A stretch of DNA of 64,000 bases, taken from the NCBI RefSeq assembly GCF_022807975.1, contig NZ_CP094358.1:2790001-2854000 (forward strand), written 5' to 3'. The notes under the pieces are model-generated. The model saw only the letters and a list, made by a program, of their open reading frames with translations. It was not told where the DNA came from and ran no database searches. Shown in pieces: positions 25,851 to 52,737 of the stretch. Position 1 is the first letter of the stretch. Every line of letters starts with the position of its first letter. The stretch comes from Abyssalbus ytuae (lineage in GTDB: Bacteria; Bacteroidota; Bacteroidia; Flavobacteriales; Flavobacteriaceae). The translations under genes and the position numbers were made by a program.

Positions 25851-26483
25851 TTACAAATCAATAACGGTAATATTATTTCTATTAAGTTTTATCTTACCTA
25901 TATTTTCAAGTTTTTTAAGCAGGCGTGATACTACTACCCGTGATGTATGTAAGTCGTGAGCTATTTCCTGGTGAGTACTGTGTATTTCGTCATTACCAAT
26001 TACTTTGGCTTTGTCCTGAAGGTATTTTAAAATACGGTCATCCATTTTTAAAAAAGCAATCGTATCAACTGCCTCAAGTAATTCTGTCATTCGGGCATGA
26101 TAGCTTCTTAAAATAAAGTTTTGCCAGGTTTTATATTTTCCCATCCACTCTTCCATTTTTTGTACAGGCACCATTATAAGCTTGGCGTCAGTTTCGGCCA
26201 CTGCCCTTATCTGACTTTTGGCTAAACCTATACAGCATGAAAATGTCATGGCACAGGTATCACCTCTTTCTATATAATATAAAAGAAGTTCATCCCCGTT
26301 TTCATCTTCTCTTAAAATCTTTACCGAACCACTAATTAATAAGGGCATTGATTTTATATATTCTCCTATTTCTATAAGCTTATAACCTGCAGGAACTTCT
26401 TTAAATACCCCTACCTGATTAATTTCTTCAATCAGTTCTTCTTCAAATAGAAAACCGTAGTTGTGCCTTAACTCTTCAATCAT
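25851..26483 (-). CDS. Crp/Fnr-family regulator with a Cys77 / Cys83-Cys84 sensor
   Basis: A 210-aa regulator: cyclic-nucleotide-binding-like beta-roll (~residues 20-115), long dimer helix (~118-150) and C-terminal HTH (~155-200, STHQEIAHDLHTSRVVVSRL). The beta-roll carries DTCAMTFSCCIG, with Cys77, Cys83 and Cys84. This lacks the four N-terminal Cys of FNR and the cAMP pocket of CRP, which suggests thiol, metal or sulfane-sulfur sensing. The recognition helix has RVVVSR where FNR has ExxSR, so its operator should differ from TTGAT. It is a candidate reader of the GTAAC-N4-GTTAC palindromes at 41-50 kb (inference). No such site lies in its own promoter. Confidence 0.85.
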   Translation of the reverse strand: MIEELRHNYGFLFEEELIEEINQVGVFKEVPAGYKLIEIGEYIKSMPLLISGSVKILREDENGDELLLYYIERGDTCAMTFSCCIGLAKSQIRAVAETDAKLIMVPVQKMEEWMGKYKTWQNFILRSYHARMTELLEAVDTIAFLKMDDRILKYLQDKAKVIGNDEIHSTHQEIAHDLHTSRVVVSRLLKKLENIGKIKLNRNNITVIDL

Positions 26484-40933: not shown

Positions 40934-41135
40934 AATTGAAGTTTCGTACTTTGTAAATAAGCAGTGTTCAGAATGTACTGATGACTGGTGTTATGTTAAT
41001 GGTTGATTGTAATTTGTATTTTGAAATTTGAGTTTTGCGTCTTGTTTTTCTTCGTATTTAGTCCTTCTAACTTTATAAATCTTACTTTATAAAACCTAAA
41101 TCCTCCCCTGTATTTTGTAACTTGTGTGTCCTTAT
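40934..41135. other. junction region after the truncated toxin
   Basis: AT-rich, no ORF. A half-site GTAAC at 41117-41121 (with TTGT then GTGTC) sits about 19 bp upstream of the first palindrome of the sulfur island and may be a weak secondary copy. The toxin's deletion breakpoint lies near 40907. Confidence 0.35.
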
Positions 41136-41179
41136 GTAACCTTTGTTACTGCATACCTTTTTAAACAAAACTACTTTTG
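41136..41179 (+). promoter_or_regulatory. activator palindrome plus -7 box, TSUP gene
   Basis: GTAAC-CTTT-GTTAC at 41136-41149 and TACTTTTG (a perfect TAnnTTTG box) at 41172-41179. Centres are 33 bp apart. The expected transcript start is near 41183, 19 nt before the ATG at 41202. Confidence 0.75.
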
Positions 41180-41201
41180 GCAAAAAAATAAAGAAAAAGG
41201 A

Positions 41202-42005
41202 ATGGATATAATGCAAATATTGGGTTATTTAGGTGCGCTTTTAATAGGTGTGGTGTTAGGATTAATTGGCGGCGGCGGCTCTATTTTAACCGTACCTGTT
41301 TTGGTTTACCTCTTGTTTATTAACCCGGTAACTGCAACCGCTTATTCCCTGTTTGTAGTGGGAGTATCGTCGCTGGTAGGGGCATTGCAAAACATTAAGA
41401 AAAAGCTGGTAGACTTTAAAACTGCCATCGTGTTTGCCATTCCTGCCTTTATAGCCGTATATACTACCAGGAAATACCTGGTACCGGCTATACCCGACGA
41501 AATTTTTACCATCGGTAGCTTTCTTGTTACAAAAGATATTGCCATTATGGTGTTTTTTGCCATTATTATGCTGCTGGCATCCATCTCTATGATAAGAGGA
41601 AAATGCGCCCACTGTAATGATGAAAATGCCAAAGTGGTGTATAACTACCCTCTTATAATTATTGAAGGACTGGTAGTAGGTGTACTCACCGGAATTGTGG
41701 GTGCAGGTGGCGGTTTCCTTATTATTCCCGCCCTGGTAATAATGGCCAAACTACCCATGAAAAAGGCGGTAGCCACCTCATTGCTTATTATAGCTATCAA
41801 ATCATTAATAGGCTTTATAGGCGATGTGGAAAATTTAGATATAGACTGGAGCTTCCTGTTAAAATTTACTGCGTTGTCGGTAATCGGGATTTTTGTGGGT
41901 ATCTACCTTAATAAATTCATTAAAGGCGAAAAACTTAAAAAAGCTTTCGGCTGGTTTGTCCTTATCATGGGCATATATATTATCCTTAAAGAAACTGTTT
42001 TGTAA
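41202..42005 (+). CDS. TSUP (TauE/SafE) sulfite/sulfur-compound exporter
   Basis: A 267-aa, 7-8-helix inner-membrane protein with the TSUP repeats GVVLGLIGGGGSILTVPVL and TGIVGAGGGFLIIPALV. A loop CxxC pair, Cys135 and Cys138 (KCAHCND), could bind metal or sulfane sulfur. The family exports sulfite, sulfoacetate or related anions. The start at 41202 is set by the promoter at 41172-41179; an upstream ATG at 41124 lies before the predicted transcript start. It opens the sulfide island and probably disposes of the sulfite made by the CstB-like enzymes. Confidence 0.88.
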   Translation: MDIMQILGYLGALLIGVVLGLIGGGGSILTVPVLVYLLFINPVTATAYSLFVVGVSSLVGALQNIKKKLVDFKTAIVFAIPAFIAVYTTRKYLVPAIPDEIFTIGSFLVTKDIAIMVFFAIIMLLASISMIRGKCAHCNDENAKVVYNYPLIIIEGLVVGVLTGIVGAGGGFLIIPALVIMAKLPMKKAVATSLLIIAIKSLIGFIGDVENLDIDWSFLLKFTALSVIGIFVGIYLNKFIKGEKLKKAFGWFVLIMGIYIILKETVL

Positions 42006-42067
42006 CATGTGTTACAAAGTGATGTAACTTAAGTCACTGTTAAGGAGGTTGATTTCCAATATTTTTA
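42002..42067 (+). promoter_or_regulatory. double activator palindrome plus -7 box, first CstB-like gene
   Basis: A perfect TGTAACATGTGTTACA (42001-42016) overlaps the TSUP stop codon. A degenerate copy GTAAC-TTAA-GTCAC (42024-42037) lies 22 bp downstream, two helical turns. The -7-like box TATTTTTA (42060-42067) is 33 bp, centre to centre, from the second copy. The gene starts at 42094. Confidence 0.7.
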
Positions 42068-42093
42068 AACTGTAATCAAAAAAACTATAACAA

Positions 42094-43509
42094 ATGAAAG
42101 TAGAACAAATTTATACAGGTTGTTTGGCCCATGCAGCTTATTATATTGAAAGTAACGGAGAAGCGGCGGTTTTTGATCCGCTAAGAGAAGTACACCCTTA
42201 TATAGAAAGGGCAAAAAAAGACAATGCAAAAATTAAATACGTTTTTGAAACTCATTTTCATGCCGATTTTGTAAGCGGGCACCTGGATCTTCAGAAAAAA
42301 GAAGGTTCTACCATTGTATTCGGTCCCGGGGCAAAACCAAATTATGAAGCTGTTATTGCAGAAGATAACCAGGTTTTTGAAGTTGGTGATTATAAAGTGA
42401 AAGTAATCCATACACCCGGACATACTATGGAAAGTACCACCTACCTGCTTATTGATGATAAAGGAAAGGAACACGGCATTATTACCGGTGATACCTTATT
42501 TATAGGTGATGTGGGAAGGCCCGATTTGGCCCAGCATGTGGTTTCGGAGTTGACTGAAGAGAAACTGGCAAGCCATTTATATGATTCGCTGCGGAATAAA
42601 ATAATGCCTTTGAGTGATGATTTGATTATTTATCCTAACCACGGAGCCGGTTCGGCCTGCGGTAAAAAAATGAGCGATGAAACTACCGATACCCTCGGGC
42701 ATCAGAAAAAAGTAAATTATGCCTTAAGGGCAGATATGACCAGGGAAGAGTTTATTAAAGAACTGCTTACCGGGTTAACTACCCCTCCGGGATACTTTCC
42801 TCAAAATGTGTTGATGAACATAAAAGGATATGAAAGCCTTGATACGGTAATGGAAAGAGGAGAAAAACCATTATCAGCAGAAGCTTTTGAAGCCGCTGCC
42901 AATGAAACCAGGGCTTTATTGCTGGATACGAGGGAAGATAAAGATTTTGCCAAAGGGTTTATTCCCAACAGTATAAACATTGCCCTTGATGGTAATTTTG
43001 CACAATGGGTAGGCGAAATGATACCCGGTGTGGAACAGGAAATTTTGCTCATAACCTATCCCGGTGATGAGGAAGAAGCCATTACCCGTTTGTCCAGGGT
43101 GGGGTATGACCATGCCATAGGTTACCTGAAAGGAGGTTTTGAAAGCTGGAAAAAAGCAGGTAAGCAAATTGACAAGGTAAACCGTATATCGGTTGAAGAT
43201 TTTGAAAAAGCTTATAAAGCAGAGAAACCTTTGGTTATTGACGTAAGAAAGAAGAGTGAATTTGATTCGCAGCATGTTATAGGCGCTGTAAATGTTCCTT
43301 TAAATGAAATAAACAGTCATTTGTCGCAATTTCCCAAAAACAAACCTTTTGTGTTGCATTGTGAAGGGGGCTACCGTAGTATGATAGCCGCATCTATACT
43401 TAAGCAACGCGGATGGGATGATTTTGTAGATATAGACGGGGGCATAGAAGGAATATTGGAAACTACTGTACCGGTTACCGAATATTCCGAGCCTGCTACC
43501 ATGCTGTAG
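42094..43509 (+). CDS. persulfide dioxygenase-rhodanese fusion (CstB-like), copy 1
   Basis: A 471-aa three-domain protein. Residues ~1-230 are an ETHE1/CstB-type metallo-beta-lactamase fold with THFHADFVSGH (His54, His56, Asp58), HTPGHTMEST and GDTLFIGDVGRPDL; this oxidises persulfides to sulfite. Residues ~265-355 are a first rhodanese with no active-site Cys (YPGDEE instead). Residues ~365-465 are a second rhodanese with Cys423 in HCEGGYRS. CstB-type enzymes turn low-molecular-weight persulfide and sulfite into thiosulfate. A terminator follows, so it is a single-gene unit. Confidence 0.9.
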   Translation: MKVEQIYTGCLAHAAYYIESNGEAAVFDPLREVHPYIERAKKDNAKIKYVFETHFHADFVSGHLDLQKKEGSTIVFGPGAKPNYEAVIAEDNQVFEVGDYKVKVIHTPGHTMESTTYLLIDDKGKEHGIITGDTLFIGDVGRPDLAQHVVSELTEEKLASHLYDSLRNKIMPLSDDLIIYPNHGAGSACGKKMSDETTDTLGHQKKVNYALRADMTREEFIKELLTGLTTPPGYFPQNVLMNIKGYESLDTVMERGEKPLSAEAFEAAANETRALLLDTREDKDFAKGFIPNSINIALDGNFAQWVGEMIPGVEQEILLITYPGDEEEAITRLSRVGYDHAIGYLKGGFESWKKAGKQIDKVNRISVEDFEKAYKAEKPLVIDVRKKSEFDSQHVIGAVNVPLNEINSHLSQFPKNKPFVLHCEGGYRSMIAASILKQRGWDDFVDIDGGIEGILETTVPVTEYSEPATML

Positions 43510-43531
43510 TAAGTTAGTTTTTTTAACAGGA

Positions 43532-43560
43532 AGAGCCTTGTGGTTTGCAAGGCTTTTTTT
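43532..43560 (+). terminator. intrinsic terminator after CstB-like copy 1
   Basis: AGCCTTG / CAAGGCT stem followed by seven T. It lies 25 nt past the stop codon. Confidence 0.85.
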
Positions 43561-43579
43561 AGTATATTTCCCCTTTAAT

Positions 43580-43623
43580 GTAACTATTGTTACTGTCGTG
43601 TTTGAGTGCGATTATTAATTTTA
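43580..43623 (+). promoter_or_regulatory. activator palindrome plus -7 box, second CstB-like gene
   Basis: GTAAC-TATT-GTTAC at 43580-43593 and TAATTTTA at 43616-43623, centres 33 bp apart. The gene starts at 43669. Confidence 0.7.
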
Positions 43624-43668
43624 TACCCTGATTAACTGGAGATTAAAAAATAAAAAAGTCTGTAAAAA

Positions 43669-45081
43669 ATGAAGATAGAACAAATATATACGGGATGTTT
43701 GGCCCAGGGAGCTTATTATATAGAGAGTAAGGGAGAAGTAGCCATTGTAGATCCGCTTAGGGAAGTGAAACCCTATATTGAAAAAGCCGAAAGTGAAGGA
43801 GCCAAAATAAAATACATTTTTGAAACGCATTTTCATGCCGATTTTGTGAGCGGCCATGTTACCTTATCAAAAGGAACAGGTGCTCCTATTGTATACGGCC
43901 CTATGGCCAATCCTTCTTTTGAAGCCATTATTGCCAAAGACGGGCAGGAGTTTAAGGTGGGAGATGTAACTATTGTTGCCGTGCATACACCGGGGCATAC
44001 TATGGAGAGTACTACCTATCTTTTAAAAGATGAAAACGGTAAAGATCATGCTATTTTTAGTGGAGACACCTTGTTTTTAGGAGATGTTGGTCGTCCTGAC
44101 CTGGCACAAAAAGCGGCAGATATGACCCAGGAGCAACTGGCAGCTACACTTTATGACAGCTTAAGAAAAAAAATTATGCCACTGAGTGATGAGGTTGTGG
44201 TATATCCGGCTCACGGTGCCGGTTCGGCCTGCGGTAAAAATATGATGAAAGAAACCGTAGACACCCTTGGCAACCAGAAGAAAATGAATTATGCCCTACG
44301 GGCCGATATGACAAAAGAAGAATTTGTAAAAGAAGTAACCGACGGGTTAATGCCACCCCCTCAGTATTTCCCCCTTAATGTGAAAATGAACAAAGAAGGG
44401 TATGAAGATATTGATGTGGTTTTAGAAAGAGGTACGCGGGCACTGTCTCCGCAGGAATTTGAGGTTGCTGCTAACGAAACCGGAGCTATAGTTCTTGATG
44501 TGAGAAACCAGGACGATTTTTCGAAAGGTCACATACCAAGATCCATTTTTATTGGTTTAGATGGAGAGTTCGCTCCCTGGGTTGGGGCTTTAATTGCCGA
44601 TGTACAGCAACCCATTTTGTTAGTAGCACCTCAGAATAGGATAGAGGAAGCCGTAACCCGGTTGTCCCGTGTTGGTTTTGACAATACCCTGGGATATCTT
44701 GAAGATGGTTTTGAAGCCTGGAAAAAAGAAGGATATGAGTATGATACGGTTGCTTCGGTGTCGGTTATAGAACTGGAAAGAAAGTTGAAAGACGAGAAGC
44801 TGGAAATATTTGACGTAAGGCGTGAATCGGAATATATTTCCGAACATGTAATAGATGCCAATCACACTCCCCTTGATTATTTGAACAATCATTTGGCCGA
44901 GTTTCCTGATAAAGGTATTTTCTATGTACATTGCGAAGGAGGTTATCGCTCTATGATAGCCGCATCCATACTAAAAAGCAGAGGTATTCATAATTTAATT
45001 GATGTAGCGGGAGGTTTTACCGCCATTAAAGAAATAGGAGGAATACCACTTACCGAATATGTGTGTCCATCCACATTATAA
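43669..45081 (+). CDS. persulfide dioxygenase-rhodanese fusion (CstB-like), copy 2
   Basis: A 470-aa paralogue of the preceding gene, colinear along its whole length and clearly a tandem duplicate. Same metal motif THFHADFVSGH, same GDTLFLGDVGRPDL, first rhodanese again without Cys (APQNRIEE), second with Cys422 (HCEGGYRS). Differences are spread throughout, so the duplication is not recent. It has its own palindrome and -7 box and its own terminator. Retention of both copies suggests different substrates or dosage. Confidence 0.9.
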   Translation: MKIEQIYTGCLAQGAYYIESKGEVAIVDPLREVKPYIEKAESEGAKIKYIFETHFHADFVSGHVTLSKGTGAPIVYGPMANPSFEAIIAKDGQEFKVGDVTIVAVHTPGHTMESTTYLLKDENGKDHAIFSGDTLFLGDVGRPDLAQKAADMTQEQLAATLYDSLRKKIMPLSDEVVVYPAHGAGSACGKNMMKETVDTLGNQKKMNYALRADMTKEEFVKEVTDGLMPPPQYFPLNVKMNKEGYEDIDVVLERGTRALSPQEFEVAANETGAIVLDVRNQDDFSKGHIPRSIFIGLDGEFAPWVGALIADVQQPILLVAPQNRIEEAVTRLSRVGFDNTLGYLEDGFEAWKKEGYEYDTVASVSVIELERKLKDEKLEIFDVRRESEYISEHVIDANHTPLDYLNNHLAEFPDKGIFYVHCEGGYRSMIAASILKSRGIHNLIDVAGGFTAIKEIGGIPLTEYVCPSTL

Positions 45082-45120
45082 TAATGTAGTTTTTTATTTA
45101 AATAAGTTTAGTTAGTTTTT

Positions 45121-45165
45121 GAAAAAAGGAGTAGGCCGGAATGGTTCAGTCTATTCCTTTTTTTG
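45121..45165 (+). terminator. intrinsic terminator after CstB-like copy 2
   Basis: A 12-bp stem AAAAAGGAGTAG / CTATTCCTTTTT with one G-U pair and extra T, between copy 2 and the rhodanese gene. Confidence 0.8.
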
Positions 45166-45181
45166 TAAAGAATGAAGAGTT

Positions 45182-45526
45182 ATGTCATTTTTAGAATTAT
45201 TTTTTGGGATTAAACCCGCCACAGATTATAAAATAGATGTATTGAGTGTTGCTGAATACACCAAGAAGATTAGTGAAAAAAATGTTCAGTTGGTAGATGT
45301 CAGGACTGCCCGGGAATATACATCCGGTCATATTAAAAATGCGGTCAATATAGATTATTATTCTTCTGATTTTTTGAAAAAAACAGAGGCTACTTTTAAA
45401 AAGGATCTCCCCCTGTATATTTATTGCCGTAGCGGAGCCAGAAGTATGCAGGCAGCAAGAAAGCTTGCAGCAATGGGGTTTGCCGAAATATACGATTTAA
45501 AAGGAGGTATCCTGGCCTGGAAATAA
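45182..45526 (+). CDS. single-domain rhodanese
   Basis: A 114-aa rhodanese with the active loop YCRSGARS (Cys82), preceded by LVDVRTAREYTSGHI and followed by DLKGGILAWK. It would carry sulfane sulfur as a Cys-persulfide between enzymes such as SQR and the CstB-like proteins. It is the only member of the island without its own palindrome; it sits 17 nt after a terminator and may rely on read-through or a cryptic promoter. Confidence 0.92.
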   Translation: MSFLELFFGIKPATDYKIDVLSVAEYTKKISEKNVQLVDVRTAREYTSGHIKNAVNIDYYSSDFLKKTEATFKKDLPLYIYCRSGARSMQAARKLAAMGFAEIYDLKGGILAWK

Positions 45527-45570
45527 AATATGAGTAAGCTGGTTCAATATCTGAAATCTGGCTATTTCTG

Positions 45571-45600
45571 AAAACCTGCACTATGCAGGTTTTCTTTTTT
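45571..45600 (+). terminator. intrinsic terminator after the rhodanese gene
   Basis: AAAACCTGCA / TGCAGGTTTT perfect stem with a 3-nt loop and a T-rich tail. It ends 1 nt before the next palindrome. Confidence 0.9.
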
Positions 45601-45601
45601 A

Positions 45602-45647
45602 CAGTAACATATGTTACTGAATAGATAAAAACTATGGATTACTTTTA
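45602..45647 (+). promoter_or_regulatory. activator palindrome plus -7 box, peroxiredoxin gene
   Basis: CAGTAACATATGTTACTG (45602-45619) is an 18-bp perfect palindrome. TACTTTTA at 45640-45647 is the -7-like box; centres are 33 bp apart. It falls inside an apparent upstream start (45634), which shows that the real start is 45673. Confidence 0.75.
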
Positions 45648-45672
45648 TCCTATAAATAAAATTTTTAGAAAC

Positions 45673-46332
45673 ATGGATAATATAGAAGTAAAATCTTTTA
45701 TGCCAAGAATCGGAGACCAGGCTCCGGATTTTGAAGCAGTAACTACGAAGGGTAAAATTAAATTTTCTGAATTTGCAAAAGATAAATGGGTGGTTATGTT
45801 CTCTCACCCGGCTGATTTTACCCCGGTTTGTACTACCGAAATGAGCGGTTTTGCAAACAGAAAAAGTGAATTTGACGCATTAAATACTGAGCTTATAGGG
45901 TTAAGTATAGATAGTATACATGCACATTTAGGCTGGGTAAATAATGTAAAAGAAAATACAGGAGTGTATTTTGATTTTCCCATTATAGCCGATTTGGATA
46001 TGAAAGTGTCTAAATTATATGGAATGCTTCAGCCAAACGAAAGTGAAACTGCCGCAGTGCGCGCTGTTTTCTTTATTGACCCTTCCAAAAAAATACGTCT
46101 TATAATGTACTATCCGCTTAACGTAGGAAGAAATATGGACGAAATTCTCAGGGCTCTTGAAGCGTTACAAACTTCGGATAAGTATAAAGTGGCCATGCCT
46201 TTAGATTGGAAAAAAGGTGATAAAGTAATAGTTCCGCCACCAAAAACCCTTGAAGAAATGGAAGCAAGGCTGAAAGATGACACTTTGGAAAAGGTAGACT
46301 GGTATCTGGCAAAGAAGGAAATTGCAGGTTAA
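45673..46332 (+). CDS. 1-Cys peroxiredoxin (Prx6 type)
   Basis: A 219-aa thiol peroxidase with the peroxidatic Cys53 in DFTPVCTTE, HPADFTPVC context, and the long Prx6 C-terminus (PLDWKKGDKVIVPPP). No resolving Cys is seen. It removes peroxides, and in a sulfide island may deal with persulfides or peroxide formed during sulfide oxidation (inference). I chose the ATG at 45673 because the predicted promoter covers an ATG 39 nt upstream. A terminator follows directly. Confidence 0.9.
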   Translation: MDNIEVKSFMPRIGDQAPDFEAVTTKGKIKFSEFAKDKWVVMFSHPADFTPVCTTEMSGFANRKSEFDALNTELIGLSIDSIHAHLGWVNNVKENTGVYFDFPIIADLDMKVSKLYGMLQPNESETAAVRAVFFIDPSKKIRLIMYYPLNVGRNMDEILRALEALQTSDKYKVAMPLDWKKGDKVIVPPPKTLEEMEARLKDDTLEKVDWYLAKKEIAG

Positions 46333-46350
46333 ATTGGTTTTTATTACACG

Positions 46351-46390
46351 AAAAAGAGAGAATATTTAAAAAAAATATTCTCTCTTTTTT
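46351..46390 (+). terminator. intrinsic terminator after the peroxiredoxin gene
   Basis: Stem AAAGAGAGAATATT / AATATTCTCTCTTT with an A-rich loop and six T. It abuts the next palindrome. Confidence 0.9.
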
Positions 46391-46391
46391 A

Positions 46392-46435
46392 GTAACATAT
46401 GTTACTGTGGTTTAGGTAAAACGTATCTAATTTTA
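46392..46435 (+). promoter_or_regulatory. activator palindrome plus -7 box, SQR gene
   Basis: GTAACATATGTTAC at 46392-46405, the same core as in front of the peroxiredoxin gene. TAATTTTA at 46428-46435; centres 33 bp apart. The ATG is at 46461. Confidence 0.75.
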
Positions 46436-46460
46436 CAGTACTTCATTAAAACCAATAAAA

Positions 46461-47723
46461 ATGAAATCACATTATCAAATATTAATAATAGGAGGGGGAA
46501 CAGGAGGTATAATGACTGCTGCCCAACTATTAAGAAAGAAACCGTCCCTGGATGTGGGATTAATAGAACCTGGCGACACTCATTATTATCAGCCTGCATG
46601 GACACTGGTAGGAGCAGGGACTTATGATTTTGAAAAAACAGCAAAACCAATGGCCGAGGTAATGCCTCCCGGTGTTAAATGGATAAAAGATTATGCCACC
46701 GGCTTTGATGCTAAAAACAATACCGTAAAAACTAAATCTTCGGGAGATCTGACTTATGACTACCTTGTGGTGTCACCAGGTCTGGTAATGGCTCCCGAAC
46801 TAATAGAAGGTTTGCCCGAAGCCATGGACAAAGGAGTGGTTTGCAGTAATTACACAAACCCTAAGCATACCTGGGAAGTTCTTAAAAACTTTAAAGGCGG
46901 GAATGCGGTATTTACCCAACCCACTACTCCTATTAAATGTGGAGGAGCTCCTCAGAAAATTATGTATCTGGCAGCCGATTATTTCAGAAAACACGGACTG
47001 GAAGATAAAACCAACGTGGTATTTGCCACACCGGGAACAGTAATATTCGGGGTTAAGAAAATTAAAAAAACCTTAACCAAAGTGCTTGACAGATATGGCA
47101 TACATTTTAAACCTTATTATGCTCCGTTTAAAATTGATGCAGATAAAAAAATAGTTTATTTCAGGAACATAGCCGACGGTGAAAGTGAATGTGTTGTTAC
47201 TGAAGATAACGACCTGGGAGAAAAAATGAGTGGAGAAGCTATTATAGAAATGCCGTTTGACATGCTTCATCTTGCTCCGCCTCAGGCACCGCCCAAGTTT
47301 GTAAGAGACTCTGACCTGATTAATGAAACCGGATGGATGGATGTGGATATTCATTCCCTTCAGCATAATAAATACCCTAATATATTTGGTATAGGCGATG
47401 TAGCATCTTTACCTACGGCAAAAACCGGGGCAGCTATCAGAAAACAAGTGCCTATTGTAATTGACAATATTTTTAAGTTAATGCAAAATCAGGAAGCAAG
47501 TAACAAGTCTTATAATGGGTATTCATCCTGTCCTTTGATTACCGGATATGGAAAAATGGTGTTGGCTGAATTTGACTACGACAATAATTTTACTCCTGAC
47601 CCGAAATTAAAAAGAATGTTGATTATGGATTCGTCCAAAGAACATTGGAGGTTATGGATATTAAAGAAATATGTACTTCCGTATTTGTACTGGAAGAAAA
47701 TGCTCAAAGGTCAAAATGTGTAA
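46461..47723 (+). CDS. sqr: sulfide:quinone oxidoreductase
   Basis: A 420-aa FAD-dependent, membrane-associated disulfide oxidoreductase that oxidises sulfide and passes electrons to quinone. FAD-binding IIGGGTGGIMTA is at the N-terminus, then PIKCGGAPQKIMYLAADY (Cys160), Cys128 in VVCSNY, and a Cys357 in SSCPLITGYGKM. GIGDVASLPTAKTG is the second FAD contact. The Cys set and KCGGAPQKIMYL are those of SQR-type enzymes (the eukaryote-like SQRDL group) rather than ordinary NADH dehydrogenases. It is the entry step of the island. Confidence 0.9.
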   Translation: MKSHYQILIIGGGTGGIMTAAQLLRKKPSLDVGLIEPGDTHYYQPAWTLVGAGTYDFEKTAKPMAEVMPPGVKWIKDYATGFDAKNNTVKTKSSGDLTYDYLVVSPGLVMAPELIEGLPEAMDKGVVCSNYTNPKHTWEVLKNFKGGNAVFTQPTTPIKCGGAPQKIMYLAADYFRKHGLEDKTNVVFATPGTVIFGVKKIKKTLTKVLDRYGIHFKPYYAPFKIDADKKIVYFRNIADGESECVVTEDNDLGEKMSGEAIIEMPFDMLHLAPPQAPPKFVRDSDLINETGWMDVDIHSLQHNKYPNIFGIGDVASLPTAKTGAAIRKQVPIVIDNIFKLMQNQEASNKSYNGYSSCPLITGYGKMVLAEFDYDNNFTPDPKLKRMLIMDSSKEHWRLWILKKYVLPYLYWKKMLKGQNV

Positions 47724-47763
47724 AAGTTGTTTTTTAGATTTTTGATTGATTAGGTTGTTTTTG

Positions 47764-47799
47764 GGGAGCGAGGTTTACCAACTTCGCTTCCTTGTTTTT
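47764..47799 (+). terminator. intrinsic terminator after sqr
   Basis: A 12-bp stem GGGAGCGAGGTT / AACTTCGCTTCC with two G-U pairs, loop TACC, and a T-rich tail. Confidence 0.85.
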
Positions 47800-47850
47800 A
47801 TATAATGAGATTTTTATTGTATATCGCTTAATAAAAAAATGATTATAACG

Positions 47851-47858
47851 TATTTTTG
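47851..47858 (+). promoter_or_regulatory. -7 box of cydAB
   Basis: TATTTTTG fits TAnnTTTG and lies 18 nt before the cydA ATG. The palindrome seen before the other genes is absent at the matching position (47815-47828), so cydAB is probably controlled differently. Confidence 0.5.
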
Positions 47859-47876
47859 TAGTAAAGAAGAATCAGA

Positions 47877-49256
47877 ATGGATGTAGAAATTCTAGCCCGT
47901 ATTCAGTTTGCCTTCACAGTAGCCTTTCATTACATATATCCTCCTTTAAGTATTGGACTCGGCTTAATTATGGTAATCTTTGAAAGTATTTATATTAAGA
48001 CCGGAAATAAGGAGTATGAAACGCTTGCCCGTTTCTGGACCAAAATTTTTGCCCTTACCTTTGGAATAGGGGTTGTAACCGGTATAGTAATGGAGTTTGA
48101 GTTTGGTACCAACTGGGCCACTTATTCGCGCTATGTGGGCGATGTATTTGGAAGTGCCCTGGCTGCCGAAGGTATATTTGCCTTTGCTTTGGAAAGCGGC
48201 TTCCTGGGAGTTCTCCTCTTTGGCTGGAACAGGGTAAAACCGTGGGTACATCTGGTATCTACCATAGGGGTATTTTTCGGATCAATGTTTTCTGCTGTCT
48301 GGATAGTGGTTGCCAATAGCTGGCAGCAAACCCCGGCAGGGTATCATATAGTAGGCGAGGGCCTGAATGCGAGAGCGGAGATCACAGACTTCTGGGCGAT
48401 GGTATTTAACCCTTCCAGTGTAGACAGGCTTACGCATGTATGGTTGGGGGCATTTTTGGCGGGAGCGTTTGTAGTACTGAGTGTTCACGCGTATTATCTT
48501 TTAAAAAACAGGTATGTGGAGATATCGAAAAAAGCTTTTAAAATTGCTTTGATCGTGGCCACTGTATTTTCCCTGGGGCAATTAGCCACAGGTCATAAAT
48601 CGGCAGATGGGGTTGCTAAAAACCAGCCCGCGAAATTAGCAGCGCTGGAAGGTCATTTTGAAGAATCGGCCCCGGCAGATATGTATATTTTAGGATGGGT
48701 GAATAAAGAAAAACAGGAAGTTTCAGGAATAAAAATACCCGGCGGACTTTCTTTTCTCTTAGATTATGATTTTGATACTCCCGTTACGGGATTGAATGCT
48801 TTTCCTGAAGACGAAAGACCCTCACAGATTAATGCAATATTTCAGTTTTATCATATAATGATTGCCATAGGTATATTTTTAATTATTATATCCTTATATG
48901 GAAATTTTATGTGGTGGAGAGGAAAATTATTTGATAAAAGATGGCTGTTATGGACTTTTGTTTTTGTGGCTATATTACCTCAAATAGCCAACCAGGTGGG
49001 TTGGTTTGCGGCCGAAATGGGCAGGCAGCCCTGGGTAGTCTACGGACTTTTACGAACATCTGATGCTTTTTCACAGGCAGTAAGGGCAAACCAGGTGCTT
49101 TTTTCGCTCATTTTGTTTTTTATTGTTTACGCCCTGTTGTTTGTGTTGTTCGTATACCTGCTCAACAAAAAAATTAAGCACGGCCCGTATGATGAAAAAG
49201 ATGATGATGACAGACCTCTTACAAAAGAAATAACAGGTGTTATAACCGGAAACTAA
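47877..49256 (+). CDS. cydA: cytochrome bd oxidase subunit I
   Basis: A 459-aa subunit with about nine helices that holds haems b558, b595 and d and reduces O2 with quinol. The b595 ligand His18 lies in FHYIYPPLSIGLG, and GRQPWVVYGLLRTSDA is the CydA motif near haem b558/d. At 459 aa it is shorter than E. coli CydA, in keeping with a short Q-loop. cydB follows 5 nt later. The bd oxidases are known to resist sulfide inhibition, which fits the setting next to sqr. Confidence 0.95.
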   Translation: MDVEILARIQFAFTVAFHYIYPPLSIGLGLIMVIFESIYIKTGNKEYETLARFWTKIFALTFGIGVVTGIVMEFEFGTNWATYSRYVGDVFGSALAAEGIFAFALESGFLGVLLFGWNRVKPWVHLVSTIGVFFGSMFSAVWIVVANSWQQTPAGYHIVGEGLNARAEITDFWAMVFNPSSVDRLTHVWLGAFLAGAFVVLSVHAYYLLKNRYVEISKKAFKIALIVATVFSLGQLATGHKSADGVAKNQPAKLAALEGHFEESAPADMYILGWVNKEKQEVSGIKIPGGLSFLLDYDFDTPVTGLNAFPEDERPSQINAIFQFYHIMIAIGIFLIIISLYGNFMWWRGKLFDKRWLLWTFVFVAILPQIANQVGWFAAEMGRQPWVVYGLLRTSDAFSQAVRANQVLFSLILFFIVYALLFVLFVYLLNKKIKHGPYDEKDDDDRPLTKEITGVITGN

Positions 49257-49261
49257 AATTT

Positions 49262-50299
49262 ATGGAAACGTTTTTAGGATTAGATTATCCCACTTTATGG
49301 TTTTTAGTAGTTGGAGCCTTATTTTCAGGTTATGCAATTTTAGACGGTTTCGACTTTGGAGCCGGTGCATGGCATTTATTCTTGAAAAAAGAAAAAAGCC
49401 GCAGAATAGCTTTGAATGCCGTAGGTCCGGTTTGGGATGGAAATGAAGTATGGCTGGTGATAGGAGGAGGTGCGCTTTTTGCAGGTTTTCCGGTAATGTA
49501 TGCAGCTATGTTTTCCTCTATGTATATTCCTTTTATGCTGTTTTTAATGTTTATAATTTTTAGAGCTATTTCCATAGAATTCAGAGGAAAAGAAAAAATG
49601 AAATGGTGGAAAAAAACCTGGGATATTGGTTATAGTATATCCAGTATTATGCTGGCTTTTTTACTGGGAGTTGTTTTAGGCAATGTGTTGCAGGGATTAG
49701 CCATTGGAGAAAATTATGTTTATAAAGGGGGAGGATTCTTTGAGTTTCTTAATATGTATGCTATAATGACCGGGGTTACCACCCTTTCCCTGTTTATGTC
49801 GCATGGGGCTATTTATTTATTGCTTAAAACCGAAGGCCGGTTGTATGCAAAGCTTACAATTTTGCTAAAAAAAGGCATGATATTTTTTATGGTAAGTTTT
49901 GGTATCACAACCTTATATACATTATTGTACATCCCTCATTTATCGGATGCATTTAAAAACAATCCGTCTTTATTTATAGTGCCCATGATGGCATTTTTAA
50001 GTATAGCCAATGTGCCGAGATTAGCTAATAAGAGAAAGTTTAAAATGGCATTTTTGTTTTCTTCAGTAACTATTAGCTTATTGTTGGTACTGGTAGCTAT
50101 AGAATTGTATCCGGTGTTGTTGTTTTCAACTTTAGGAGAACAATTTAATATTGATATATACAATGCAGCCGCATCGGATAAGTCTTTAGGTATAATGTTA
50201 ACCTTTGTGGCTATCGGCACCCCGCTAGTGTTAGGATATACTTTTTTTGTATACAGAACCTTCCGGGGTAAAGTAAAATTGGATGAACATAGTTATTAA
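49262..50299 (+). CDS. cydB: cytochrome bd oxidase subunit II
   Basis: A 345-aa, eight-helix membrane subunit that forms the heterodimer with CydA. LDGFDFGAGAWHLFL, GPVWDGNEVWLVIGGGALFAGFP-type sequence (near residues 55-80) and FRGKEKMKWW are characteristic. It starts 5 nt after cydA. No small cydX frame follows. Confidence 0.94.
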   Translation: METFLGLDYPTLWFLVVGALFSGYAILDGFDFGAGAWHLFLKKEKSRRIALNAVGPVWDGNEVWLVIGGGALFAGFPVMYAAMFSSMYIPFMLFLMFIIFRAISIEFRGKEKMKWWKKTWDIGYSISSIMLAFLLGVVLGNVLQGLAIGENYVYKGGGFFEFLNMYAIMTGVTTLSLFMSHGAIYLLLKTEGRLYAKLTILLKKGMIFFMVSFGITTLYTLLYIPHLSDAFKNNPSLFIVPMMAFLSIANVPRLANKRKFKMAFLFSSVTISLLLVLVAIELYPVLLFSTLGEQFNIDIYNAAASDKSLGIMLTFVAIGTPLVLGYTFFVYRTFRGKVKLDEHSY

Positions 50300-50325
50300 T
50301 AATAAAGGGGCTAAAGGGGGCTTGT

Positions 50326-50369
50326 GTAACCAATGTTACAAAAAGCTTGTTTTTAGTTTTCTTTTTTTG
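50326..50369 (+). promoter_or_regulatory. activator palindrome plus -7-like box, YeeE / porin operon
   Basis: TGTAAC-CAAT-GTTACA (50325-50340) and TTTTTTTG at 50362-50369. The centres are again 33 bp apart; the box keeps TTTG but has TT for TA. The first gene starts at 50384. Confidence 0.65.
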
Positions 50370-50383
50370 CAAAAATTTTATTT

Positions 50384-50944
50384 ATGGAATCGATTTTAGA
50401 TCTATGGCCCTGGTATATTTCAGGACCGCTTATTGCATTAATAATGCTATTCCTTTTATTTATAGGAAAAAGCTTTGGTGTATCAGCAAACTTAAGAACC
50501 TTTTGCACTATGTGCGGGGCCGGAAAAAAGTATGACTTTTTTAAATTTGACTGGAAAGCACAAAGCTGGAATTTAGTTTTTCTTGTGGGTACTATTGTGG
50601 GTGGTTTTCTCGCTTCCCATTATTTGTCTCCCGAAAACAACGCCGCGGACATTTCACAAAAAACTGTTCAACATCTCGAAACTATCGGTTTTGACAGTGC
50701 CGGAAAATCGTATTTACCTACGGAGCTTTTTAGCAATGAAGCTTTTACTGATGGCAAAACTCTGCTTTTACTTATTTTAGGAGGCTTTTTAGTTGGGTTT
50801 GGTGCCCGTTATGCAGGAGGTTGTACCTCGGGACACGCCATTTCAGGATTGAGCAATTTACAACTACCATCGTTAATTGCAGTGATAGGATTTTTTATTG
50901 GGGGATTAATAATGGTTCATTTTATTTTCCCATTTATATTTTAA
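50384..50944 (+). CDS. YeeE/YedE family half-transporter, N-terminal type
   Basis: A 186-aa inner-membrane protein with about five helices. Conserved Cys are Cys41 and Cys44 (TFCTMCGAGK) and Cys147 in GARYAGGCTSGHAI, the YeeE/YedE signature used for thiosulfate uptake by Cys-S-S relay in TsuA. It probably moves thiosulfate or other sulfane-sulfur compounds. It is the first gene of a three-gene unit; the second half-transporter is at 52324 and a porin lies between. Confidence 0.85.
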   Translation: MESILDLWPWYISGPLIALIMLFLLFIGKSFGVSANLRTFCTMCGAGKKYDFFKFDWKAQSWNLVFLVGTIVGGFLASHYLSPENNAADISQKTVQHLETIGFDSAGKSYLPTELFSNEAFTDGKTLLLLILGGFLVGFGARYAGGCTSGHAISGLSNLQLPSLIAVIGFFIGGLIMVHFIFPFIF

Positions 50945-50948
50945 ATAA

Positions 50949-52319
50949 TTGAGAGGTTACATTTTATTGTTTTTTTGTTCCATACTTTTTTTTGACAGTA
51001 TAGCCCAGACCTCTTCTCATGACACATTAAACAGTGCACAAACATTTAAGGAAATTTTCAGTAAAGGTGAAATAAAAGGGTATATGCGTAACTATTTTTT
51101 AAATACCATAAATGAAGGCGTTTTAAAAGATTATTATGCAAATGCCACAGGTGGCGCATTGTCGTATAAAACAATGCCTTATAAAGGCTTTGAAGCAGGA
51201 GTTAAAGGTAGTGTTACTTTTCATACTTTTTCATCTGATTTAAATGAAGAAGATGCAGTGACCGGAAAAACTTCAAAATGGGAGCCGGAGTTATATGATG
51301 TTTTAAATAGAGATAAATATAACGATCTGGACAGGTTGGAAGAGCTATATATTAAATACTATTTTAAAGGGTCGTATGTTTCCTTGGGTAAAATACCTGT
51401 ACAGGACACTCCTTTACTTAATAAAAGTGATGGCAGAATGATGCCTTTTTCTTTTGAAGGAATTTGGGGCCGTTTTAATATAAATAAAACTCAGCGTTTA
51501 AATATAAGCTGGTTATACAAAGTATCTCCCCGCTCTACTACCGAATGGTTTAAACTAAAAGAAGCATTGGGGATTTTTTCCAACGGATATCAACCCGATG
51601 GCGAACCTGCAGATTATCAGGGAAGATTAAATTCTAAAGGTATTGCTATTATTACGTATGAAACTAAATTCAATAATTTATATTTTGGTTTATTTAACTG
51701 GTATATTGATAAAGTAATTAATACGACCTGGTTTGAAACCGTTTATAATTTGAGCAGGGAAGTAAGTGTGGGTTTGCAGTATACCTGTCAGTTGCCCGAT
51801 AATTATCAAAGTAAATTAAGTTTCCGGGAAAGATATGTACAACCCGGGGAAAACGGACAGGTTTTAAGTTCAAAAATTTCCTATAAAAAAGATAATTTAA
51901 ATATAAAAGTAGCTTACACCCATGCTTTTAACTCCGGCAGATTTCTTTTTCCGCGTGAATTAGGACGAGACAGGTTTTACACCTCTATTTCGAGGTCAAG
52001 GCTCGAAGGGTTTGGAAGCACACAAGTAGTAACACTCTCCGGTAGTTATGATTTTAATTTAAAAGGTTTCAAAGCAGGTGTAGAATACACAAGGTTATTT
52101 AACCCGGAAATCAACAATTTTCAATTTAATAAGTATAATCTGGATGAATACCATCAGTTTAATGTGCGTTTACATTATCAACCCAATGGTTTTTTTGAAG
52201 GATTAAAGTTTGATGTATTATATGTTTTTAAAGAAAATATTAATAATACATCTCCCGATGTAATTTTTAATAAAAGTAATTATCATCAAATAAATTTTGT
52301 AACGAATTTTAATTTTTAG
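50949..52319 (+). CDS. OprD-like outer-membrane porin
   Basis: A 456-aa exported beta-barrel protein (signal peptide ~1-20, ending SIAQT). GEIKGYMRNYFLNT at the start, repeated aromatic strands, and an C-terminal FVTNFNF fit an OprD/substrate-specific porin. The start is TTG at 50949, right after an in-frame TAA, 4 nt past the YeeE stop. Location between the two YeeE halves suggests it lets sulfite, thiosulfate or a related anion cross the outer membrane. Confidence 0.75.
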   Translation: MRGYILLFFCSILFFDSIAQTSSHDTLNSAQTFKEIFSKGEIKGYMRNYFLNTINEGVLKDYYANATGGALSYKTMPYKGFEAGVKGSVTFHTFSSDLNEEDAVTGKTSKWEPELYDVLNRDKYNDLDRLEELYIKYYFKGSYVSLGKIPVQDTPLLNKSDGRMMPFSFEGIWGRFNINKTQRLNISWLYKVSPRSTTEWFKLKEALGIFSNGYQPDGEPADYQGRLNSKGIAIITYETKFNNLYFGLFNWYIDKVINTTWFETVYNLSREVSVGLQYTCQLPDNYQSKLSFRERYVQPGENGQVLSSKISYKKDNLNIKVAYTHAFNSGRFLFPRELGRDRFYTSISRSRLEGFGSTQVVTLSGSYDFNLKGFKAGVEYTRLFNPEINNFQFNKYNLDEYHQFNVRLHYQPNGFFEGLKFDVLYVFKENINNTSPDVIFNKSNYHQINFVTNFNF

Positions 52320-52323
52320 AAAT

Positions 52324-52737
52324 ATGAAAGGCATTATATATTTAGTAGTAGGTATTTTATTTGGTACTATTATGTTTAAATCTGAAGCGGCTTCATGGTT
52401 CAGGATTTACGAAATGTTTCAATTTGATTCATTTCATATGTATGGAATCATAGGTTCTGCCCTTGTAGTAGGAATAATAGGGGTTCAAATTATAAAAAGA
52501 TTTAAGCTGAAATCTTTTAACGGAGAAGAAATTGTGATACCTCCAAAAGATAAAAGTATTAGCAGATATTTATTCGGTGGGATAATTTTCGGATTTGGAT
52601 GGGCACTGGCGGGAGCTTGCCCCGGCCCGATGTTTACTCTGCTGGGAGCCGGATATTTTCCAATTATAATAGTAATAATATCAGCAATTTTCGGAACATT
52701 CATGTATGGTGTTCTTCGGGATAAATTACCACATTAA
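52324..52737 (+). CDS. YeeE/YedE family half-transporter, C-terminal type
   Basis: A 137-aa, four-helix inner-membrane protein with the second YeeE signature GWALAGACPGPMF (Cys99). Together with the 186-aa protein it would make a full YeeE/YedE pair. It begins 4 nt after the porin stop and is co-transcribed. Confidence 0.85.
   Translation: MKGIIYLVVGILFGTIMFKSEAASWFRIYEMFQFDSFHMYGIIGSALVVGIIGVQIIKRFKLKSFNGEEIVIPPKDKSISRYLFGGIIFGFGWALAGACPGPMFTLLGAGYFPIIIVIISAIFGTFMYGVLRDKLPH

Follow-up and report, generated by a model that had tools for sequence, protein, structure and literature searches.

The window analysed here, 64,000 nucleotides (nt) of the Abyssalbus ytuae genome (contig NZ_CP094358.1, positions 2,790,001 to 2,854,000), contains an island of sulfide-handling genes in which six promoters carry the palindrome GTAAC-N4-GTTAC or a close variant of it, and also the gene of a Crp/Fnr-family regulator, at 25851, that we propose as the reader of these sites. 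The features are collected in Table 1, where coordinates are positions within the window, as they are in the text except for genome coordinates, which are marked G000. The island encodes, among others, two proteins of the metallo-beta-lactamase (MBL) fold that presumably act as persulfide dioxygenases (PDO), a sulfide:quinone oxidoreductase (SQR)-like flavoprotein and two families of putative sulfur-compound transporters. Automated calling places the open reading frame (ORF) starts of the TauE permease and the peroxiredoxin at 41124 and 45634, i.e. upstream of the corresponding boxes; fitting in-frame ATG codons are found at 41202 or 41211 for the former and at 45673 for the latter. The SQR-like protein scores 234.6 bits against the NCBIfam model of SQR type III, under the cut-off of 525, and no exact palindrome was found directly upstream of cydAB in this genome.

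Table 1. Promoter elements, genes of the sulfide island and the gene of the proposed regulator
Feature	Position	Strand	Basis or remark
Crp/Fnr-family regulator with C77/C83/C84 and helix SRVVVSRLL	25851..26483	-	Pfam; proposed reader of the sites
Palindrome GTAACCTTTGTTAC, TauE promoter	41136..41149	+	
-7 box TACTTTTG	41172..41179	+	gap 22
TauE/SafE-family permease	41202..42005	+	Pfam PF01925; start re-assigned from 41124
Exact palindrome	42002..42015	+	without gap-22 box
Degenerate palindrome GTAACTTAAGTCAC, promoter of persulfide dioxygenase 1	42024..42037	+	phased
-7 box TATTTTTA	42060..42067	+	
MBL-fold protein with two rhodanese domains, persulfide dioxygenase-like	42094..43509	+	Pfam; putative function
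Palindrome GTAACTATTGTTAC, promoter of dioxygenase 2	43580..43593	+	
-7 box TAATTTTA, dioxygenase 2	43616..43623	+	
Second MBL-fold protein with two rhodanese domains, persulfide dioxygenase-like	43669..45081	+	Pfam; putative function
Single-domain rhodanese	45182..45526	+	Pfam
Palindrome GTAACATATGTTAC, peroxiredoxin promoter	45604..45617	+	
-7 box TACTTTTA	45640..45647	+	
1-Cys-type peroxiredoxin	45673..46332	+	Pfam; NCBIfam PRK13189 above cut-off; start re-assigned from 45634
Palindrome GTAACATATGTTAC, SQR promoter	46392..46405	+	
-7 box TAATTTTA, SQR	46428..46435	+	
Sulfide:quinone oxidoreductase-like flavoprotein	46461..47723	+	Pfam Pyr_redox_2
cydAB, cytochrome bd	47877..50299	+	Pfam
Palindrome GTAACCAATGTTAC, YeeE promoter	50326..50339	+	
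-7 box TTTTTTTG	50362..50369	+	
YeeE/YedE (TsuA-like) sulfur transporter, part 1	50384..50944	+	Pfam Sulf_transp
YeeE/YedE part 2 (DUF6691)	52324..52737	+	Pfam

A search of the window recovered all the palindromes reported by the first-pass annotation. Six copies are exact, with no further exact one in the window, and two copies have one mismatch, at 42024 and at 43966, the latter inside a coding region. The whole 4.37 Mb genome contains 13 exact copies, six of which fall within 9.2 kb, where 0.027 would be expected at the genome's own density (P ~6e-13, a value computed only after the cluster had already been pointed out). At all six promoters a -7-type box begins 22 nt after the palindrome, which corresponds to 33 bp from centre to centre, and it agrees with the six fixed positions of TAnnTTTG at 6, 5, 5, 5, 5 and 5 places, in coordinate order. 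Since the octamer at gap 22 from the perfect copy at 42002 scores just 2/6, the degenerate copy at 42024 is the phased one, as the annotation had also stated, and 42002 is possibly an auxiliary site. On the assumption that initiation takes place 7 nt past the box centre, the leaders are estimated at 12-43 nt, with the re-assigned starts of TauE (taken from 41203, one base past the A of its ATG) and of the peroxiredoxin. The predicted transcription starts lie near 41182, 42070, 43626, 45650, 46438 and 50372.

The arrangement recurs in relatives. Of 587 loci confirmed by one scan with the second dioxygenase, the 80 best, 1.56 Mb in all, were analysed; the named genomes scanned belong to genera that we take, by recognition of the names, to be Flavobacteriaceae. 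In these 80 loci GTAAC-N4-GTTAC occurs 167 times, as compared to at most 7 occurrences for each of 59 other half-site orderings and at most 4 for each of the other spacers between 0 and 12. A box with at least 5/6 matches at gap 22, on either strand, accompanies 142 of the 167 palindromes, against a background of 1.1% of positions, and with a threshold of at least 4/6 the number rises to 162, with 5 below. If the gap is allowed to vary from 18 to 26, the best value is 22 alone at 134 sites and 22 tied at 5, 21 at 13, 23 at 2 and 25 at 1, and 12 palindromes have no box of 5/6 at any of these gaps; the T run in the box masks the gap-21 sites, a real minority, unless such variation is permitted. 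Because of this minority the phase is strong yet not absolute: the distance of "exactly 33 bp" claimed by the first-pass annotation applies to all six promoters here, while a minority of the relatives' sites use a gap one base shorter. Its assertion that such phasing is very unlikely by chance agrees with the counts in the relatives, where boxes at gap 22 stand far above the background.

For the logo we used the 108 of 167 sites with an assigned plus-strand gene downstream, 94 of which were left after those at least 70% alike had been dropped; the palindrome columns are fixed by selection, the downstream box is not. The box columns show T at +29.5 (87%), A at +30.5 (85%), T at +33.5 (100%), T at +34.5 (99%) and G at +36.5 (63%). 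Thus, of the sigma-ABfr promoter features, the -7 TAnnTTTG is present and the -33 TTTG is absent, with no TTTG found at the -33 position in the logo. According to the accessible part of the source, TAnnTTTG at -7 is the Bacteroidota sigma-ABfr consensus, and in F. johnsoniae, too, attempts to identify the -33 element did not succeed (PMC7366714). For most PDO2, SQR and YeeE sites the palindrome centre lies 51-66 nt before the gene start. The data agree with two further points of the annotation, i.e. that the sites occupy approximately the class II activator position (as predicted from the box) and that no -33 TTTG is needed.

The genome encodes 17 proteins with matches to the cNMP domain, and both gene linkage and co-occurrence with the sites point to the one at 25851, already suggested by the annotation. 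An orthologue of its gene lies within the island at 63 of the 80 dioxygenase loci. A second sampling, which removes the bias of starting from the dioxygenase, started from the regulator in one-per-genus genomes of the family and scored linkage as a TauE, PDO or YeeE homologue of at least 50% identity within ~8 kb. Linkage was found for 18/20 close homologues (63-73% identity) and for 15/15 more distant ones (46-51%); the two unlinked close homologues are L177, whose sole hit is a peroxiredoxin (48%), and L182, which has none. We also counted full exact sites, defined as the palindrome, 22 nt and TAnnTTT, in 149 genomes. The 85 genomes with a close orthologue (E below 1e-73) contain 273 such sites (mean 3.21, at least one in 80 genomes), the 33 with a more distant orthologue contain 30, and the 31 with a weak homologue or none contain 2 (mean 0.06, in 2 genomes), for a total of 305 versus 9 for the reversed pattern. 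These per-class counts, like those for the alternative regulator L014 given below, come from hand-transcribed tables, whose 100 site-bearing genomes agree with a separate automatic tally. A search of the A. ytuae genome with up to 3 mismatches yielded 326 hits versus 437 for the reversed control; some exact sites were missing from it, and it was excluded from the counts.

Half-sites of the more distant group have drifted, to GTGAC-N4-GTCAC and similar sequences, and the gap-22 box is retained there in PDO and YeeE promoters. In 11 of the 15 loci the top score of a PDO or YeeE promoter at this gap is 14-16 of 16; L193, L204 and L205 attain 13 and L202 attains 12, and 100 base shuffles of these stretches peaked at 13. 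A relaxed scan finds at least one site-plus-box in each of the 15 loci, with 23 matches at gap 22, 4 at gap 21 (in L193, L204 and twice in L202) and 1 at gap 24; in the TauE and regulator promoters of this group mostly no phased site was seen. The PDO site of these loci (L191-L205) is often GTGAC-N4-GTCAC though the recognition helix is unchanged, hence one half-site position seems tolerant. Two islands contain, in addition, a second Crp/Fnr paralogue, ~40% identical (L070:11929-12543 and L110:12375-12983), located upstream of a palindrome-led YeeE pair.

The 25851 protein combines a cNMP_binding domain (PF00027, score 35.0, cut-off 27.5) with a Crp-type helix-turn-helix (PF13545, 35.6, cut-off 27), and its AlphaFold model exhibits the Crp fold (mean pLDDT 89), for which Foldseek returns 3dv8 as the best match, with CAP and NtcA also among the matches. 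Residues 71-90 form a lower-confidence loop that carries C77, C83 and C84, the sole cysteines of the protein, and aligns over the cAMP loop of CRP, with Met79 opposite Glu72, a residue by which CRP contacts cAMP. Among 93 aligned rows above 200 bits (the window gene being counted twice), C77 is present in 93 and C83 and C84 in 91, and S181, R182, V183, V184, S186 and R187 are kept in all; in the helix alignment, TSRVVVSRLL of this protein faces STRVTVTRLL of NtcA. The location of the cysteines at the place of cAMP binding suggests a role in sulfur sensing. The structure 3dv8 belongs to a Crp/Fnr protein of Eubacterium rectale, the nearest solved relative, which has two of the loop cysteines in common (DMCLLSASC), so that sulfur-linked Crp/Fnr proteins may extend beyond Bacteroidota.

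The pair C83-C84 (hereafter CC) also tracks the genomic context. In a sample of 20 homologues from outside the family, judged by a looser identity rule and with cydAB/peroxiredoxin counted for L234, an island gene lies near by for 6/7 with CC and 4/13 without. Pooled with the family sample, 38/41 loci with CC and 6/19 without it are linked (Fisher P 2e-6, with the looser rule applied outside the family). Among the distant homologues without CC, L206-L209 are unlinked and L210 lies near TauE (47%), PDO (63%) and YeeE (45%). In view of this counterexample, of L198 and L242, likewise linked, and of L228, which has CC and is not linked, we treat the association as a lead rather than proof. A sister branch with C77 only (a loop like GESCIMSFLGG; mostly L238-L247) is spread across Bacteroidota, mostly away from sulfur genes, and palindrome-like sites with boxes flank some of its members, e.g. 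L239 and L246.

The regulon reaches outside the island. The claim of the first-pass annotation that there are no further full copies is correct for exact copies in the window; the genome contains three more full palindrome-plus-box sites, exact, before the genes of a di-heme cytochrome c peroxidase-like protein, a cytochrome c/Tll0287 protein and a thioredoxin. Outside the island, binding by the regulator is predicted at genome positions G000:1952741, 3859759 and 4183585. Sites with one mismatch precede genes for a DUF983-like and a thioredoxin-like protein, and at the gene of an outer-membrane efflux protein the palindrome is followed by a box that lies one base farther away. The peroxidase-like, thioredoxin, DUF983-like and thioredoxin-like labels are our presumptive assignments from the sequence, and a Pfam scan of a relative of the DUF983-like protein gave no match. 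In the related loci, 60 of the 167 palindromes are assigned to genes outside the query set: SulP permease (10), YgaP-like membrane protein (9), outer-membrane efflux protein (8), fatty-acid-hydroxylase family (6), cytochrome c/Tll0287 (5), DUF983-like (5), DUF2202 (3), SoxA/TsdA-type cytochrome c (3), molybdopterin sulfite-oxidase-like (2) and short or single genes, some of them probably mis-oriented (9). Each class is named after one Pfam-scanned representative, or after the A. ytuae copy for the cytochrome class. According to BLASTP, three of these classes are found again at sites of the A. ytuae genome, namely the cytochrome c (up to 45% identity over 325 residues), the DUF983-like protein (up to 48%) and the efflux protein (up to 58%). 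Neither the thioredoxins nor the peroxidase-like protein have a match among the 167 downstream genes of the relatives. The data support the reading of the annotation that this is a sulfur regulon.

The two YeeE halves, which adjoin each other in relatives, are separated here by an ORF of 456 amino acids (50949-52319, plus strand, TTG start), with a signal-like N-terminus and a sequence that looks beta-barrel-like by eye. Pfam and NCBIfam scans gave no match for it, and weak homologues (28-29%) are encoded on the opposite strand in loci L035, L045 and L047.

Taken as a whole, the explanation that we regard as very probable is that the 25851 protein acts from the six sites as a class II activator. 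Its dimer would read GTAAC-N4-GTTAC through the NtcA-like recognition helix (S-R-V-V-x-S-R), take a position centred ~40 bp before the transcription start, in which it would stand in for the -33 contact, and recruit RNA polymerase with the Bacteroidota primary sigma factor to the -7 box 22 nt downstream (21 nt at a minority of the relatives' sites). The inducer is probably sulfide, persulfide or polysulfide, acting on C77, C83 and C84 in the counterpart of the cAMP-binding loop of CRP. Thereby the cell would switch on sulfide oxidation (SQR), persulfide oxidation (the MBL-rhodanese proteins), peroxiredoxin and thioredoxin, as well as the transport of sulfur compounds (TauE and YeeE, and SulP in relatives).

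Several observations weigh against this interpretation. The regulator gene is 15 kb away from the island, and upstream of 26483 no clear site was seen in this genome, where autoregulation is accordingly rejected (some relatives have such a site). No full exact site is present in 5 of the 85 genomes with a close orthologue. In many genomes the palindrome plus box is in excess over the reversed pattern but the bare palindrome is not, for which reason we dropped the latter as a genome-wide marker. The phase slips, gap 21 being best in 13/167 sites and in 4/28 matches of the more distant group. L198, L210 and L242 are linked yet lack CC, and C77 is also found in relatives unlinked to sulfur genes. 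Finally, all the evidence is drawn from sequence, and the same position may serve repression.

Among the alternatives, the one that survives best, which we consider possible though clearly less likely, retains the regulator and the sites and replaces the signal by redox state, oxygen, nitric oxide (NO) or a small molecule, with structural cysteines. The cytochrome c peroxidase-like and cytochrome c/Tll0287 targets would suit such a signal, as would the retention of C77 away from sulfur genes, but reduced sulfur is the substrate of the island targets, and sulfur linkage goes with the CC pair. Repression from the same sites is improbable in our opinion: sequence alone does not fix the sign, and NtcA also represses from some positions, as stated in the available portion of PMC3898017, but one dominant site-to-box gap and the absence of a -33 TTTG from the logo fit contact-dependent class II activation, and we favour activation because the site occupies the -33 region without a -33 box.

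Slightly less credible still is the possibility that another Crp/Fnr protein reads the sites, especially the HcpR2-like L014 (G000:C1:742959-743672), as part of an NO/HcpR-type regulon. In its favour, the published motif is an exact match and the helix of L014, TRPTLNLIL, has Pro at a specificity position; Rodionov et al. tied the R-P helix pair to GTAACnnnnGTTAC, in the part of their paper accessible to us (PMC1274295). However, among the first 60 of the 149 genomes, the 31 that have a 25851 orthologue but lack an L014 homologue average 2.74 full sites, and the 2 in which an L014 homologue occurs with a weak or no 25851 orthologue average 0.00. L014 has a match in 1 of the 80 island loci, at 25-29% identity. 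Because the full sites follow the 25851 orthologue rather than the L014 homologue, L014 is rejected as the regulator, and so is a regulon of hcp, the hybrid cluster protein gene, as a PF03063 search of the genome gave no match; none of the remaining 15 cNMP proteins was tested singly as a reader. Chance palindromes and boxes in AT-rich promoters, where box-like octamers are indeed common (1.1% per position at 5/6), are practically out of the question, as the permuted half-sites, the phase counts, the reversed pattern, the co-occurrence and the cluster P value all speak against them.

Heterotrophs with SQR and PDO, Bacteroidota included, are gaining recognition as a sink for sulfide in the sea, as far as the available part of the source goes (PMC12345210). 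In the open-access literature that we searched, no regulator of the SQR/PDO genes of Bacteroidota was found, and the mainly open-access literature yielded no description of the sulfur regulon, its regulator or the phasing. The present analysis names a probable reader, a paired-cysteine regulator whose gene in flavobacteria usually lies beside sulfide-handling genes, together with a precise grammar of the promoters and a list of predicted targets; with single mutants, both sulfide sensing and class II activation can now be tested in Bacteroidota. It is tempting to extend the proposal to a Bacteroidota-wide sulfur-sensing branch of Crp/Fnr proteins, in which a C-x5-CC loop would replace the cAMP site and sense sulfide or sulfane sulfur in a class II activator that substitutes for the -33 contact of the Bacteroidota sigma factor at a near-rigid 22 nt gap, and which would be the phylum's first sulfur-responsive activator; we give this broader idea an even chance.

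The palindrome itself is not new, and it would be wrong to call it undescribed, since GTAACnnnnGTTAC is the predicted consensus of the HcpR2 regulon, likewise under a Crp/Fnr protein, in anaerobes including Bacteroides; as the available part of the work describes it, hcp is a target of HcpR2, whose second specificity position is Pro (PMC1274295), whereas the 25851 protein has Val there and sulfur targets. By alignment, the equivalent of CRP position 181 is Val183 in 93/93 rows, and an hcp (prismane) target is absent from this genome. The promoter layout is shared with NtcA: judging from the accessible sections of PMC3898017, canonical NtcA class II promoters of cyanobacteria have GTAN8TAC, which is contained in the present sites, at ~-41.5, and in the examples the -10 box follows 22 nt later, although NtcA differs in its nitrogen genes, its 2-oxoglutarate signal and its TAN3T box. 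The recognition helices of the two proteins are similar. Against the NCBIfam models the 25851 protein scores 43.5 for NtcA (cut-off 244.95), 58.5 for CRP (266) and 17.1 for FNR (228), below the cut-off in each case. FNR carries a [4Fe-4S] cluster on N-terminal cysteines, and no such cysteine cluster exists here, where the cysteines are just 77, 83 and 84.

As for sulfide regulators, BigR, YgaV/SqrR, Hyphomicrobium SoxR and sHdrR likewise control SQR, persulfide dioxygenase, rhodanese or thiosulfate genes, and CstR and FisR are further bacterial regulators that respond to sulfide or sulfane sulfur. These known regulators belong to the ArsR, CsoR or sigma-54 families, those of ArsR being repressors, in contrast to the Crp/Fnr protein described here. 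HcpR, PgRsp and CrpPg of Porphyromonas gingivalis are also Bacteroidota Crp/Fnr proteins, with heme/NO, heme/redox or no known ligand, and no sulfur regulon appears in the portions of the reports at hand (PMC12750200, PMC12040651). The 25851 protein thus departs from each of HcpR2, NtcA, CRP and FNR in at least one defining feature, and yet it would appear to work in the manner of a class II activator such as NtcA or CRP.

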